A DNA stretch of 64,000 nucleotides from Microlunatus elymi (GTDB taxonomy: Bacteria; Actinomycetota; Actinomycetes; Propionibacteriales; Propionibacteriaceae): NCBI RefSeq assembly GCF_007362775.1, contig NZ_CP041692.1:3782001-3846000 (forward strand). Reading direction: 5' to 3'. The notes under the pieces were generated by a model. It searched no databases. It had not been told where the DNA came from and saw only the letters and a list, made by a program, of their open reading frames with translations. Below are positions 24,930 through 42,081 of the stretch, piece by piece (position 1 is the stretch's first letter; every line of letters begins with the position of its first letter). The translations under genes were made by a program, and so were the position numbers.

Positions 24930-25955
24930 TCAGCCCAGGCCGATGGCATCGCGTGCCGCGGCCAGGGTCGGCGCGGCAGCCGCTCGAGCCTGCTCGGCAC
25001 CCCGGGCGAAGATCATCCGTACCTCGGCCGGGTCGATCTCGGCGTACCGCGTGCGGATCGGCTCGATGATCGCGATCACCGCGTCGGCAACCGTATTCTT
25101 CAACGTACCGAAGGAAGTATGGCTGTTGATCAACTCCTGCACGGTCAGCCCGGAGGTCGCGGCACCGAGATCGAGCAGGTTGGCCAGCCCCGGGCGTTCG
25201 TCGGGGCGGTAGCTGATCCCGGGCTCGGAGTCGGTGACGGCCCGTTTGATCTTGCGCCGGATCGTCTCCGGAGAGTCGAGCAGGTAGATCACCCCGGCCG
25301 GATTCGTACTCGACTTGCTCATCTTGACCGCGGGGTCCTGCAGATCCTTCAGCCGCGCGGCGATCTTCGGGTTGATCACCTCCGGTACGGTGAAGACGTC
25401 GCCGTCGGAGCCGGGATAGTCCCGGTTGAAGCGCTGAGCAAGATCACGAGCGAGCTCGACGTGCTGGGTCTGATCATCGCCCACCGGGATCTTCTCGGCC
25501 TGGTAGAGCAGGATGTCGGCGGCCATCAGCACCGGATAGCTGAGCAGCGACATCCGAGTGTCCGGGCGACCGCGCCCCTTCTCCTTGTACTGGATCATCC
25601 GGCCGAGCTCGCCGACTCGGGCCACGCACTCCAGCAGATAGTGCAGCCCGGTGTGCTCTGGGACCGCGCTCTGCCGGAAGATCACCTGCCGATCCGGATC
25701 CAGCCCGACGGCGATCATCAGCCGGCTGAACTCCGCGATCCGCGCACGCAGCAGGTCCGGTCGATGGGTCGTGGTCATCGCATGCAGATCGGAGATGCCG
25801 AAGAAGCAGCGGCCGGTTGCTTCCCGCATCGGGCGCAGCGCGCCGAGGTAGTTGCCGACGGTCAACCGGCCGCTCGGCGTGAGCAGGCTCAGTTGGACGC
25901 CGTCGCCTCCTGCCGGATCGAGGTCGGCCGAGCGTTCGGCGAGATCGAGACTCAT
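24930..25955 (-). CDS. trpS: Tryptophanyl-tRNA synthetase, attenuator-controlled
   Basis: TrpS charges tRNA-Trp with tryptophan. The 341-residue protein is a class I synthetase with LLTPSGRLTVGNYLGAL (HIGH region, residues ~24-40), DLHAMTTTHRP, the DDQTQHVELARDLAQRFN pattern, and VKMSKSSTNPAG (KMSKS at 211-215). The ATG follows AGGAGA. The leader 26103-26003 carries a Trp-Trp leader peptide and attenuator, so expression should rise when charged tRNA-Trp is scarce. Auxiliary, antibiotic-resistant TrpRS genes of Streptomyces are regulated this way. Whether this is the only TrpRS or an auxiliary copy cannot be decided from the window. Confidence 0.96.
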   Translation of the reverse strand: MSLDLAERSADLDPAGGDGVQLSLLTPSGRLTVGNYLGALRPMREATGRCFFGISDLHAMTTTHRPDLLRARIAEFSRLMIAVGLDPDRQVIFRQSAVPEHTGLHYLLECVARVGELGRMIQYKEKGRGRPDTRMSLLSYPVLMAADILLYQAEKIPVGDDQTQHVELARDLAQRFNRDYPGSDGDVFTVPEVINPKIAARLKDLQDPAVKMSKSSTNPAGVIYLLDSPETIRRKIKRAVTDSEPGISYRPDERPGLANLLDLGAATSGLTVQELINSHTSFGTLKNTVADAVIAIIEPIRTRYAEIDPAEVRMIFARGAEQARAAAAPTLAAARDAIGLG

Positions 25956-26002
25956 GATCGTTCTCCTGGGTCGAGAGCCCCGGCCGAGAAGCTGCCGACA
26001 TG

Positions 26003-26034
26003 CGAACAGCCGCCCTGGTCGGGGCGGCTGTTCG
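26003..26034 (-). terminator. Terminator stem (3:4) of the trpS attenuator
   Basis: Perfect 13-bp arms CGAACAGCCGCCC and GGGCGGCTGTTCG form a hairpin between the leader peptide and trpS. No U-tract follows, which is common for actinobacterial terminators. Its first arm can pair instead with GGGCGGC just after the leader stop codon, giving an antiterminator. Confidence 0.8.
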
Positions 26035-26046
26035 GATGGTGTTCCG

Positions 26047-26096
26047 GGTACGTGTCGACAGGCCGCCCTAGGCGGCCCACCAGCAACACGTACGCG
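26047..26096 (-). promoter_or_regulatory. Leader stem (1:2) of the trpS attenuator
   Basis: The RNA GTACGTGT in leader codons 4-6 pairs with ACACGTAC downstream, and GGCCGCC pairs with GGCGGCC across the TAG stop. Together they form a long interrupted hairpin enclosing the two Trp codons. A ribosome halted at those codons would open it and free the 3' arm. Confidence 0.78.
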
Positions 26097-26103
26097 AAGT
26101 CAT
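26068..26103 (-). CDS. trpS leader peptide MTSRTCCWWAA
   Basis: A tiny reading frame of 11 codons plus TAG encodes MTSRTCCWWAA, with tandem Trp codons (82-77 of 26000) preceded by two Cys codons. It is placed exactly before alternative hairpins and 113 nt upstream of the trpS ATG. This is the classic arrangement of ribosome-mediated transcription attenuation. No strong Shine-Dalgarno lies directly upstream (GGTGGAG is ~14 nt away), so initiation may be leaderless or weak. Confidence 0.85.
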   Translation of the reverse strand: MTSRTCCWWAA

Positions 26104-26125
26104 GGCAGGGATGCTACTCCACCGG

Positions 26126-26392
26126 TTATCGGGCGGAGAACCGGAATACCGAGGTCGAGTCGAAGGACTGTCCCGGTCGCAGCACGGTGCTCGGGTAGCT
26201 CGGATGGTTGGGCGAGTCCGGGAAATGCTGGGTCTCCAGGGTGACCGCATCGCCTTGCCGGTAGACCTTTCCGCTGATGCCCTTGATCGTCGCGTCCAGA
26301 TAGTTGCTGGTGTAGACCTGCACTCCGGGCTGATCGGTGAAGCAGTCGACTGTCCGGCCGGACCCCGGATGGAAGACCCTGGCCGCGAAGCT
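26126..26392 (-). pseudogene. Aldose 1-epimerase (galactose mutarotase) C-terminal remnant
   Basis: About 85 codons match the C-terminal end of GalM-type epimerases: AARVFHPGSGRTVDCFTDQPGVQVYTSNYLD, GKVYRQGDAVTLETQHFPDSPNHPSYPSTVLRPGQSFDSTSVFRF. The catalytic Glu of the family lies in this region (TDQPGVQVYT to LETQHFPDSP), but the N-terminal ~270 residues are absent. Upstream sequence in the same frame (to ~26690) has no family resemblance. The fragment ends 22 nt before the trpS leader peptide. Confidence 0.75.
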
Positions 26393-26854
26393 CGGCGGTG
26401 CGCCGGCCCTGCGGTTGAGGATGGCACCGGTGGCCCGCAGCAGATCCCGGCGAGGTATGTCGTGCGGTCGGTTCTGTTCCGGCCGGCGGTCGGTGGATAG
26501 TTCGCGAACTGAGCTGTCGCGACCGGGCAGGCGTGAATTCATGAAGCGCTCCTTGCTCGCCGACCACAATGTCGGCGGCGACGGAATTGTTGACGGGCAT
26601 CGGCGAATCGGCGCCGGTGTCCCACGCATGGCAGCTTTTCGGAAGTTGCACCTCGGCCACGAAACGCCACAAGGGCCCACGAAACGCCACAAGAGCCTGG
26701 GCGGTGCCGGCGGAGATCATGGCCGGCCACCTCTTACGGAAGTCTGGACGCGGCGACGAAAGGCGAGCAGACTACCGGCGGCGACGATGGTTCCGGTCGA
26801 GTCGCTGAATCGGTCCTCGGGGGGCACCGACACCTTCAATGGAGAGGATGTTCC
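26393..26854. other. Intergenic region with a short tandem repeat
   Basis: No gene is supported here. A 20-bp unit, CCACGAAACGCCACAAGGGC, is present twice in tandem at 26657-26696 (one difference). The region separates the galM remnant from the GH43 gene and should contain the latter's promoter, but no convincing -35/-10 pair was seen. Confidence 0.5.
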
Positions 26855-28672
26855 ATGAAACCCCGTAGGTTGCCTGCGGCACTGGTCGCTGCCCTGACGT
26901 TGGCCGCGAGCCTGCTGATCGGGACCGGCCAACCGGCGTCGGCCAACCCGGCGGGCGGCGGCCGGCCGACCCCGGCCGCGTACACGAATCCGATGCAGCT
27001 CGACCTGCCCGGCGGTTTCACCGCGGCCAGCTGTGCCGATCCGGATGTGATCCGCGACGGCCGCACCTGGTATCTCTACTGCACGACCGACCGTGCCAGC
27101 GATGACACGAACGCCCCGGACATCGGACTCATCCCGATCTACCGCTCCACCGATCTGGAGCATTGGACCTACGTCACTGCAGCGCTGCCGGCGATACCTT
27201 CGTACGCGGCGGCGGGCGCCGGCATGTGGGCTCCCGACATCAACTACGTCGACGGCCGGTATCGGCTCTATTTCGCCGTCTCCGACACCAACCTGCCCGG
27301 TGGCGGTTCGGCCGTCGGCGTGGCCACCGCGGACTCGCCGACCGGCCCCTTCACCGTGTCACAACAACCCGTTGTGGCCCCGTCCGACATCCCCGGCAAC
27401 CCCGGTTCGAAGCGGTCGACGATCGACCCGGAGCTGGTTCGTGATCATGGTCGCAGTTACTTGTTCTACGGGGGTTTCGGCGGCGGACTGAGTTCGCGCG
27501 TCCTCAGTGCCGACGGGTTGAGCACCGACCCGTCGAGCCAGCAGCAGATCGCCATCGACAATCGGTACGAGGGTGCCAAGGTCGTTCGGCACGGCGGCTG
27601 GTGGTATCTGATGGCCTCGTCCACCAACTGCTGCAACGGCCCACTGACCGGCTACACGGTGTTCGCTGCCCGATCGAAGAACGTGCTCGGGCCCTACCTG
27701 GATCGACACGGTCGCTCGGTGCTGGACAGCCAGGTCGGCGGCACGGTGGTGGTCGCGCAGAACGGCAACCGCTGGGTCGGCGTCGGTCACAACACCATGA
27801 TCACCGACTTCGCCGGTCAGGACTGGATGATCTATCACGGCATCGATCGCAACGATCCGTACTACCGAGGGGCGCCCGGCTACACCAAACGGCCCGGGCT
27901 GATCGACCCGGTCGACTGGATCGGCGGCTGGCCCGAGGTCAACGCCGGCGCCGGGCCGTCCGACACCCTGCACGCCGGGCCGGTCGCCCAGCCCGGTGAA
28001 CGCGCCACCTATCACGCCCGCCCGGTGCGTGACGTACGACCGGGGCGTCCGATCGGCTCGCTGTCGGACGAATTCAACAGCACCTCGCTGGGCTCGCAAT
28101 GGAGCTGGATCCGACAGCCGGATCCGTCCAGCTATGCGCTGCGGAACGGCAAGCTGATCTGGGACACCCAATCCGGTGATCTTCATCCGCCGACGGACAA
28201 CCTGCCGGCAGTACTGACCGAGCCGGCGCCGGCAGGTCCGTACGTGGTGGAGACGAAGGTGGCGATGTCGTGGCCGGCATCGGGCTGCTGTCAGAACTAC
28301 GTCCAGGGCGGCCTGGTGATCTACAACGACGACGGCAACTACATCAAACTGGCGTCGGTGTCGATCTGGAACACCCGGCAGACCGAGATCGGCAAGAACG
28401 TCTACCCGCAGCCGTCCGGCTACCCGAACTACGGCAACGGGGTGATCGGCCCGGTGGGCAGGACCTACACCTATTTGCGCCTGGTACGTGGCACGGCCGG
28501 GGACCTGGACACGTACACCGGTTACAGCAGCCCGGACGGCCTGCACTGGGACAAGGGTGCAACCTGGACCCAGCAGCGATCGGACGACACCAAGATCGGC
28601 CTGGTGTCGATGGCCGGTGCCGGTTTCACCAGCACCTTCGACTACGTCCGGGTGAGCCGGCCGAGCGGGTAA
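26855..28672 (+). CDS. Secreted glycoside hydrolase family 43 protein
   Basis: A 605-residue exported enzyme likely to attack arabinan, arabinoxylan or pectin side chains. A signal peptide (ALVAALTLAASLLIGTGQPASA) precedes a five-bladed propeller. The GH43 residues are visible: Asp in CADPDVI (~62), Asp in TIDPELV (~191) and Glu in RYEGAKVV (~239). The C-terminal ~200 residues (LSDEFNSTSLGSQWSWIRQPDPSSY...GLVIYNDDGNYIKL) are a concanavalin-like beta-sandwich as in beta-xylosidase C-terminal or DUF1349 domains. A GGAGAGG site precedes the ATG. The last 31 bases overlap the convergent SDR gene. Confidence 0.92.
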   Translation: MKPRRLPAALVAALTLAASLLIGTGQPASANPAGGGRPTPAAYTNPMQLDLPGGFTAASCADPDVIRDGRTWYLYCTTDRASDDTNAPDIGLIPIYRSTDLEHWTYVTAALPAIPSYAAAGAGMWAPDINYVDGRYRLYFAVSDTNLPGGGSAVGVATADSPTGPFTVSQQPVVAPSDIPGNPGSKRSTIDPELVRDHGRSYLFYGGFGGGLSSRVLSADGLSTDPSSQQQIAIDNRYEGAKVVRHGGWWYLMASSTNCCNGPLTGYTVFAARSKNVLGPYLDRHGRSVLDSQVGGTVVVAQNGNRWVGVGHNTMITDFAGQDWMIYHGIDRNDPYYRGAPGYTKRPGLIDPVDWIGGWPEVNAGAGPSDTLHAGPVAQPGERATYHARPVRDVRPGRPIGSLSDEFNSTSLGSQWSWIRQPDPSSYALRNGKLIWDTQSGDLHPPTDNLPAVLTEPAPAGPYVVETKVAMSWPASGCCQNYVQGGLVIYNDDGNYIKLASVSIWNTRQTEIGKNVYPQPSGYPNYGNGVIGPVGRTYTYLRLVRGTAGDLDTYTGYSSPDGLHWDKGATWTQQRSDDTKIGLVSMAGAGFTSTFDYVRVSRPSG

Positions 28673-40093: not shown

Positions 40094-42081
40094 GTCAGGG
40101 GCGCAGTAGCCCGGAGGCTCTGTTTCCCCATCCCCCTTTCAATCCGTGCATGCGGTTTTCCCGCACACGGCTTACCGATGATCTTCTTGGCATGGTTACG
40201 CAGCCCTCGGGTAGCGCACGCTCCCGCGGAGCCGGTAGAGCCCGTGGTCGTTGAACCAGTCCTCGGTCCACTGATCGGCGACTCCGGCGTGCAGATTGCG
40301 TCCCCGCTTCTTAACCAGCAAGCGGTGAAGACGCCACACAACGTAGCGATCGATCTGACGGAACTTGATGGCGGCATTTCCGATGCGGAAGTAGTTTCCC
40401 CAACCACGCAGGATCGGATTCAACTGCCCGATCAACACTTCGATCGGAACACCCACGTGGTTGGCACCGGTGCGGTCGCGGACCTTCTCCCGCACCGACT
40501 TCATCGCCCGCTGCGACGGCCACCGATGCAGGTAATAGCGCACGATGTGCTTCTGTTCCCACAATCGGCCCGACATCCGCGCACGGAAGTGGCACCCCAG
40601 AAAGTCGAAACCCTCCCGGCCTTCCCGCAGGTCCACAACCCGCGTCTTGCCCGGATGCAACTCCAACCCCAACCCCGCCAGAATCTGTCTGGCCTGATCC
40701 AAGGCCGTCTTCGCCTGTCCTGGTGTACTGCACATGATCACGAAATCGTCGGCATACCGCACCAACACCCCAAGACCCTGTGCCTGCACCTGTTCGTCGA
40801 AGGCGTGCAGGTAGATGTTGGCCAACAGGGGCGAGATCACCCCACCCTGCGGAGTTCCAGCAACCGTCTGCTGCAACCCCTCCCCGGTCAACACTCCTGC
40901 TCCGAGCCACTGTCTGACCAGTTTCAGCACCCGCCGATCCGAAACCCTCCGGGCCACCTGTTCCATAAGAACGTCATGGTCCAGATGATCGAAGAACCCT
41001 CGAATGTCGGCCTCGGCCACCTGAGTGAACCCTGCGATGAACGACTTCCGGATGGTCTCCTTGGCCTGCGTCGCCGACCGCCTCGGACGGAACCCGAACG
41101 AGGACGACTTGAAGTCGGCCTCAAAAATTGGCTCCAGAACGATCTTCGCCGCAGTCTGCACCACCCGGTCGATCACCGTCGGGATCCCCAACGGTCGGAC
41201 ACCACCAGCTGGTTTAACAATATCCACACGCCGCACCGGCGCGGGGAGATACGACCCGGCGCGAAGGACCCGCTGAACCTCGGCCAACATCCGGCCGACG
41301 CCGTAGTCCTCCACCATGGCCAGGGTGATCCGATCCACCCCGGCCGCTCCCCGGTTCCTACGGACCCGTTCCCACGCCTCCCACAGCACGTCACCCCTGC
41401 AGATACGGTCAAACAGAGCGTGGAAACGACGCCCCTCAGACTGCTTAGCCGCAGCCCATAGCTTGCCTTGCAGTTTTCGCACTTTCACCGGCGATGGAGC
41501 CTCATCGACGGCTACCACCCGCTGAAACGAGTCGGGGTTGTTGGACCCGGAACACCGGGTCATGCCCACGCGCTTACCCACTCCGCCAGCATGATCAAAG
41601 TCAGGGCCCTTCCCTTCCGACGCGTTATGTTGCACGCCGATCCCGACACCAACCGATGCCATCGGTACTACGACCCCATCGGACTCCCGCTGCACTCCCT
41701 CGGCCTTCACCATCGGCTCATACCTCGGGTCTCTCGCCTGACGCAGGCATGCGCAGACGGGCCTCTCCTGTTCCGTGTCAGACCTTGAACACGTGCCGCC
41801 GTCCCTACCCCGGAAAGACCCGCCCCACCATCCGGAACCCAGTGGAACAGACATGGCCTTCGCCGTGAAATGAGCGGCTCGGCTCTCCCGTTGCATCTGT
41901 GACGAGGCTGCAACGTTCGCTTCACGCTACGGCCCGCGTCCTTGCTCCCTCCGAAGAGGCTCTCGACACCCCGCTCAGCCCGCCAGATCTCTCCAACGAA
42001 CCGGGGCCCGCTACCCGGCGCTCCGGCGCCTACCGGAACGGGACTCACACCCGCCGGCCTGACACAGCTTCCAGGACGCAC
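40094..42081 (-). mobile_element. Group II intron with reverse transcriptase/maturase
   Basis: The element is read on the minus strand. A 5' end like GTGCGTCC at 42081 and the block GTGTGAGTCCCG just inside it match group II domain I starts. Domain V is clear at 40142-40174 (AGCCGTGTGCGG, loop, CCGCATGCACGG). Domain VI follows and the intron ends ...CCCCTGAC at 40094. The 505-codon RT lies between. The exons would join as GAGCCGATG/TACCAATG, immediately before the ATG of the membrane protein gene at 40088. The exact 5' boundary is less sure, because another GTGCG starts at about 42108. Confidence 0.85.
40196..41713 (-). CDS. ltrA: Group II intron reverse transcriptase/maturase
   Basis: This intron-encoded protein helps splicing and copies the intron RNA into DNA targets. 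RT motifs run from GAAGVDRITL through VRPLGIPTVIDRVVQTA, SFGFRPRRSATQA, GFFDHLDHDVLM, TPQGGVISPLLANIYLH, the catalytic VRYADDFVIM, and KTRVVDLREGREGFDFLGCHFRAR. The maturase (domain X) follows with GWGNYFRIGNA. The protein ends shortly after, with no HNH endonuclease domain. ATG 41713 is chosen; the open frame runs to 41896 across intron RNA sequence. Confidence 0.92.
   Translation of the reverse strand: MVKAEGVQRESDGVVVPMASVGVGIGVQHNASEGKGPDFDHAGGVGKRVGMTRCSGSNNPDSFQRVVAVDEAPSPVKVRKLQGKLWAAAKQSEGRRFHALFDRICRGDVLWEAWERVRRNRGAAGVDRITLAMVEDYGVGRMLAEVQRVLRAGSYLPAPVRRVDIVKPAGGVRPLGIPTVIDRVVQTAAKIVLEPIFEADFKSSSFGFRPRRSATQAKETIRKSFIAGFTQVAEADIRGFFDHLDHDVLMEQVARRVSDRRVLKLVRQWLGAGVLTGEGLQQTVAGTPQGGVISPLLANIYLHAFDEQVQAQGLGVLVRYADDFVIMCSTPGQAKTALDQARQILAGLGLELHPGKTRVVDLREGREGFDFLGCHFRARMSGRLWEQKHIVRYYLHRWPSQRAMKSVREKVRDRTGANHVGVPIEVLIGQLNPILRGWGNYFRIGNAAIKFRQIDRYVVWRLHRLLVKKRGRNLHAGVADQWTEDWFNDHGLYRLRGSVRYPRAA

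Follow-up and report, generated by a model that had tools for sequence, protein, structure and literature searches.

A predicted ribosome-mediated transcription attenuator upstream of an auxiliary trpS gene in Microlunatus elymi

Introduction

An attenuator controlling the gene of an auxiliary, indolmycin-resistant tryptophanyl-tRNA synthetase (TrpRS) in Streptomyces was reportedly described by Vecchione and Sello in 2010 (J. Bacteriol. 192:3565). In S. lividans, the leader TrpL2 (MMTRTCTQLWRAA), located upstream of trpS, is reported to be leaderless and to have two hairpins but no U-rich stretch, and the same source also prints a trpE leader with WWW and a longer tail (MFAHSTRNWWWTAHPAAH) (PMC8079986). 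Trp operon attenuators of Corynebacterium and Streptomyces, together with a candidate trpS2 attenuator in S. avermitilis, are found in the available part of PMC1262725, where they mostly precede trp biosynthesis genes. The predicted cysteine leader ORFs of actinobacteria are likewise short and carry runs of the sensed codon, but the codons are those of Cys and, in the same part of that text, no conserved terminator hairpin accompanies them (PMC1262725).

Here we analyse the region upstream of a trpS gene of Microlunatus elymi, contained in a window of 64,000 nt (contig NZ_CP041692.1, positions 3,782,001-3,846,000; coordinates below are those of the window unless stated otherwise), which an initial annotation had read as a complete Trp attenuator. 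The locus shares with the Streptomyces trpS attenuator and S. lividans TrpL2 a short leader, Trp codons just before the stop and a position upstream of trpS; it differs from TrpL2 (W-R) by its WW pair, its shorter leader and its family (Propionibacteriaceae). It follows the same logic as the Trp attenuators of PMC1262725, whose triples (gGCC-rGCy-GGCC, in the text available) resemble the GGCCGCC/GGCGGCC of the window, but it precedes trpS. Printed examples outside Streptomyces (e.g. in Propionibacteriaceae) were sought in the open-licence literature and none was found.

Results

The sequence, read base by base, agrees exactly with the attenuator parts that had been claimed (leader, 1:2, 2:3 and 3:4). 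The features, all on the minus strand, are as follows, with the evidence in brackets:

26111-26116, minus: predicted -10 box TAGCAT, 7 nt 5' of the leader ATG (sequence, promoter-box geometry in relatives)
26068-26103, minus: leader peptide ORF MTSRTCCWWAA, 11 residues (sequence, WW leaders in relatives)
26103-26101 and 26070-26068, minus: leader ATG and leader stop TAG (sequence)
26082-26080 and 26079-26077, minus: tandem TGG codons of the leader ORF (sequence)
26048-26093, minus: whole 1:2 stem (sequence, folding, covariation of the outer stem between clades)
26093-26086 with 26055-26048, minus: outer 1:2 stem, GTACGTGT with ACACGTAC (sequence, folding)
26077-26071 with 26067-26061, minus: inner 1:2 stem around the leader stop, GGCCGCC with GGCGGCC (sequence, folding)
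26022-26068, minus: 2:3 antiterminator, GGGCGGC (26068-26062) with GCCGCCC (26028-26022) (sequence, ribosome-masked folds)
26003-26034, minus: 3:4 hairpin, proposed intrinsic terminator lacking a clean U run (sequence, folding, 38-locus consensus)
25962-25967, minus: Shine-Dalgarno (SD) sequence AGGAGA of trpS (sequence)
24930-25955, minus: trpS, tryptophanyl-tRNA synthetase, 341 aa (profile match, alignment)

The ORF downstream of the leader is trpS (TIGR00233, 282 bits against a cut-off of 177), i.e. a gene of Trp charging, and the short ORF in front of it has its tandem Trp codons just 5' of the stop. The 3:4 hairpin is built of 13 perfect pairs (26034-26022 with 26015-26003) around a loop of 6 nt, and 47 nt separate its end from the trpS ATG. 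When 25950-26110 was folded, the minimum-energy structure included the 1:2 and 3:4 stems and reached -80.6 kcal/mol, whereas 200 dinucleotide shuffles averaged -63.7 +/- 4.6 (z -3.6) and one of them did as well. The terminal base pairs of the two 1:2 stems and the 3:4 stem had probabilities of at least 0.92, also when the RNA started at 26103.

A comparison across relatives upheld the WW leader. Related trpS loci (140 found, 80 kept) comprised the 34 closest, L003-L036 (49-69% identity), and the others, L037-L082 (42-47%). All 34 closest loci, which are labelled Microlunatus, Propionibacteriaceae, Nocardioides, Kribbella, Actinomadura, Thermomonospora and Streptomyces, carry a WW leader; none was present within 450 nt in the remaining 46. 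In each of the 34, the WW pair stands directly before -AA, -AV, -SA, -PA, -PAS or -SAS and the stop comes two or three residues past it. Within the genus, locus L083 has the leader MQLRTNQWWAA, locus L084 (genome G107) has MTSRTCCWWAA, identical to that of the window, and the trpS locus of genome G114 has the same leader as L003 (Microlunatus endophyticus). In L086 (MRMTGQWRSA) a lone Trp precedes Arg, as in S. lividans TrpL2. L085 and L087 duplicate the records L003 and L004 and were removed, which left a working set of 38 loci including the window; the first Trp codon lies four codons before the stop in 36 of them and five in the other two. This conservation in relatives places the predicted attenuator beyond chance. 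Similar DNA was also searched for on plasmids, and none was found.

Can the position of a ribosome select among the mutually exclusive 1:2, 2:3 and 3:4 pairings? By computation it can. We folded the RNA of the 38 loci starting at the ribosome edge and stopping where strand 3 ends, i.e. before strand 4 exists. The mean probability that strand 3 pairs upstream was 0.75 when the A site held the first Trp codon, 0.21 when it held the stop codon and 0.24 with no ribosome; the Trp-state value was the highest in 38/38 loci, and it exceeded the stop-state value in 38/38 for ribosome edges of 9-15 nt. The claimed logic, in which stalling at Trp codons opens 1:2 and favours 2:3, is thus supported computationally, as the masked fold favours 2:3 at these codons. 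As the A site was moved along the leaders, this probability stayed level (means 0.69-0.76) from the second codon 5' of the first Trp through the second Trp and then fell, to 0.21 at four codons on. When the letters of strand 2 and the spacer were shuffled, the Trp state still averaged 0.35-0.63: at most 5 of 100 shuffles were as high in 23 of the 38 loci (0 in the window) and 6-17 in the other 15, and base composition alone yields part of the Trp-state effect. Once strand 4 is present, 3:4 prevails at equilibrium in all three states (0.92, 0.88 and 0.89 in the window), so the choice must be kinetic and made during transcription.

The expectation that the three stems would covary was borne out in part: the outer 1:2 stem shows compensated changes between clades, and the 2:3 core is near-invariant, i.e. 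conserved but devoid of covariation. The outer 1:2 stem was missed by RNAalifold when run on the plain alignment, and we therefore used an alignment-free swap test with five clades assigned by hand. The leader paired with its own spacer at a mean of -14.4 kcal/mol, with spacers of the same clade at -12.9 and with those of other clades at -9.7; a leader's own spacer beat the other-clade median in 37 of the 38 loci and every other-clade spacer in 14. Only 1 of 2000 five-clade rearrangements was equally good for the outer 1:2 stem, against 297 of 2000 for strand 2 with strand 3. In a MAFFT alignment, two-sided changes occurred at least once in 6 of 15 consensus pairs, of which five belong to the terminator, and the 3:4 hairpin is present in the 38-locus consensus.

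The promoter geometry is shared as well. In 37 of the 38 loci, against 0.15 expected, an in-frame leader start has a TAnnnT box 6-7 nt 5' of it, the miss being L016 (every in-frame start was counted, 89 candidates in all); taking first-choice starts only, a TAnnnT box ends 6-7 nt 5' of the start in 32 of 35 loci, the background being 0.18% of positions. In the window, a clear -35 element is not apparent by eye near the predicted -10 box, which points to a putative transcription start at or next to 26103, and the leader is probably leaderless. Mycobacterial cysteine leader ORFs are reported to be leaderless.

The leader-free second trpS that the initial annotation had suggested looking for exists: the 5.12-Mb single-contig genome holds two TrpRS genes, the second lying at 1,501,805 of that contig (47% identity), and a search around it found no WW leader. 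A protein search of 197 family genomes found TrpRS at 60% identity or more in six genomes of the genus (G000, G107, G114, G125, G140 and G160), and a second TrpRS gene is present in all six. Copies were counted in 30 chosen genomes: two TrpRS genes are present in 24/24 with an attenuated gene of the window's TrpRS clade, and one only in the 6 Propionibacteriaceae with an attenuated trpS of another type. The sole attenuated trpS of the latter indicates that attenuation of trpS is not confined to spare copies.

The Trp pocket sets most leader-bearing enzymes apart. Thr26 of the window TrpRS aligns with Gln9 of the TrpRS of PDB 1i6k/5dk4. Among 39 leader-bearing loci, two of which are duplicate records, position 9 is Thr in 26, Lys in 12, Met in 1 and Gln in none; among 71 loci without a leader it is Gln in 66, and the other 5 were unaligned. 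Against a strict rule, Gln occurs in 2 of 16 further leader-bearing TrpRS loci (L209 and L210). Lys9 is said to render S. coelicolor TrpRS1 indolmycin-resistant (Kitabatake 2002); the window gene resembles TrpRS1 in having a second trpS beside it, and at the position of Gln9 its enzyme has Thr, not the Lys of TrpRS1. We take Gln11 of E. coli TrpRS to be the same position as Gln9. In the available part of a docking report, Gln11 of the E. coli enzyme is a contact of indolmycin (PMC6450493). At a second site, where H43N confers resistance on Bacillus TrpRS (PMC4899734, available part), His is kept in the window (His58, aligned on His43) and replaced by Gln in L086. The suggestion that the window trpS is a resistant or backup copy is plausible because of the position-9 residue and the two-copy pattern.

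To see how far the element extends, a covariance model (R1) was built from the 38 loci and used with a hit threshold of E 0.001. In its own genome R1 found the window place at E 8e-13, the next match being the opposite strand of the same place at 0.07, and a script search of about 600 nt upstream of trpE, trpD and trpB of this genome found no leaders. R1 had hits in 25 of the 396 genomes sampled across the phylum and in 104 of the 293 from the order. Of the 29 phylum loci examined (L117-L145), eight lie before TrpRS genes, and a WW leader with a promoter box is present in 23. Two of the Streptomyces loci matched by R1, L117 and L119, have the leader MTTRTCTQLWWAA 5' of a TrpRS about 48% identical to that of the window; from these, the mapped S. 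lividans TrpL2 case is very likely a homologue. Five other Streptomyces loci (L126 and L141-L144) have leaders that resemble the published trpE leader, sharing its WWW and longer tail. The hits L132, L134, L135, L136, L139 and L140, which have no WW leader with promoter box, look like chance.

From the order, 40 hits were picked by hand and are a non-random sample (L197 is the contig of L016). The genes that follow encode TrpRS in 22 cases, trpD-like proteins in 7, trpB-like proteins in 6, a TrpB-like enzyme in 1, TrpX-like proteins in 3 and anthranilate synthase in 1; among the 18 non-TrpRS proteins, nine were searched against NCBIfam and nine were called from the start of their sequence, and the TrpX matches scored 266 and 272, under the curated cut-off of 390. 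A WW ORF is present in all 40 hits, and a TAnnnT box at 6-7 nt in 31. Strand 3 pairing was higher in the Trp state than at the stop in 40/40 and higher than with no ribosome in 38/40, the two misses being L192 and the anthranilate synthase locus L213; L213 also lacks a promoter box, and the trpE case is therefore weak. Loci L184, L186 and L187 have a WW attenuator before the gene of a TrpX-like ABC substrate-binding protein (L186 named from its sequence start only), which suggests attenuation of Trp uptake.

In six Propionibacteriaceae genomes (G008, G068, G027, G047, G116 and G103), the WW attenuator and promoter box lie 5' of the sole TrpRS gene found (L191-L196). The leaders are of the WWRP or WWRRCxRP type, and five of the six TrpRS are divergent (31-34% identity, with a TGDRPTG motif).

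Discussion

We propose, with a probability of about 0.88, that the locus is a ribosome-mediated transcription attenuator of an auxiliary trpS. Transcription would start at the leader ATG and a ribosome would load on the bare 5' end. With plentiful Trp-tRNA, the ribosome would reach the UAG stop and cover strand 2, leaving strand 3 free to form the 3:4 hairpin, and RNA polymerase would halt before trpS. When charged Trp-tRNA is scarce, as in Trp starvation or under indolmycin-like inhibition of the main TrpRS, the ribosome would stall at UGG 8 or 9 and cover the 5' arms of 1:2, strand 2 would be free to pair with strand 3 while strand 4 is still unmade, and trpS would be transcribed. Without translation, the 1:2 stems would hold strand 2 and termination would be the default.

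A translational switch, in which the structures hide the trpS SD, either alone or in addition to termination, is an unlikely account. It would explain why, in the whole-leader fold from 26103, SD bases 25963-25967 pair with 25987-25991 (P 0.94-0.99), why SD pairing exceeds all but at most 10 of 200 shuffles in 7 of the 33 loci scored (a trpS start was obtained in 33 of the 38, none for L015, L019, L020, L024 and L026, and the start chosen for L031 is doubtful), and why the window 3:4 hairpin is followed by no clean U run (GUUCGCAUGU). However, neither 3:4 nor 2:3 touches the SD or its partner, so that a choice driven by the ribosome would not open the SD. Moreover, the window SD hairpin (25962-25991) is absent from a shorter fold that extends through the first 12 nt of the gene, in which the SD pairs less than it does in shuffles (0.40, with a shuffle mean of 0.63; pairing at least as high in 191 of 200 shuffles), and good U runs follow the terminator hairpin in several relatives, e.g. 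L083 and many Kribbella loci. As the pairing partner of the SD lies outside the switch, we did not build upon it as a second regulatory layer.

It is very unlikely that the leader senses cysteine besides tryptophan, through its Cys6-Cys7 codons. The masked fold of the window is as antiterminating at both Cys codons (0.82 each) as at the Trp codons (0.82 and 0.75), so the identity of Trp as the signal follows from codon conservation and from the gene, not from the fold; the CCWW leader also recurs in a second genome (L084), and published work describes leaders with runs of Cys codons ahead of actinobacterial cys operons (PMC1262725). Nevertheless, the controlled gene encodes TrpRS, and no other listed leader has Cys-Cys before WW: the preceding residues are SC in L003 and NQ, RT, LQ, QL, QQ and others elsewhere. 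The stress that had been laid on the unusual CCWW leader is accordingly dropped, the Cys pair not being conserved.

We give extremely little weight to the 3:4 hairpin being nothing more than a terminator for the upstream aldose epimerase-like gene, with the WW ORF accidental: a same-strand ORF with an aldose 1-epimerase C-terminal match does end at 26126 and GC-rich hairpins are common in such genomes, but WW leaders in 34/34 closest loci argue against an accident, a promoter-like box separates the upstream gene from the leader, and leader, spacing and pairings are kept despite different upstream genes (e.g. the end of an ABC-transporter-like gene in L086, judged by eye). A T-box or another tRNA- or ligand-binding riboswitch, which a structured leader before a tRNA synthetase gene might bring to mind, is barely conceivable, since no Rfam family, T-box included, reaches its gathering score over the leader, and a relaxed threshold gave RcsR1 and RNAI only, far below theirs.

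A ribosome-mediated attenuator at this locus would extend the Streptomyces mechanism to the Propionibacteriales, where TrpRS genes of the same clade sit beside a second copy. Its link with a changed Trp pocket would make the notion of a drug-induced spare synthetase testable outside Streptomyces, and the elements in their order (TAnnnT, 6-7 nt, start, WW, stop and two mutually exclusive hairpins) offer a rule for annotating such switches. A leaderless attenuator would also be a simple system in which to ask how translation that initiates at a bare 5' end keeps up with RNA polymerase. On a broader scale, the odds seem to us even that a single leaderless Trp-attenuator design is the common Trp switch of many actinobacteria, placed before spare and sole trpS, trpD, trpB, trpE and trpX-like genes, with a trpS branch tied to pocket-altered enzymes that withstand Trp mimics.

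Some minor observations deserve mention. Between the terminator and trpS, an extra hairpin pairs the trpS SD above shuffles in L003, L017, L018, L027, L032, L034 and L084. The ORF 5' of the leader (26129-26692, minus strand) resembles aldose 1-epimerase over no more than the C-terminal third (profile positions 201-298 of 299) and may be the remnant of a truncated galactose mutarotase adjoining a GH43 gene (26855-28669, plus strand). Elsewhere, the window contains a group II intron (40199-42056, minus strand), with an RF02003 D1-D4 match at 41922-42056 and a reverse transcriptase/maturase ORF (RVT_1, GIIM).
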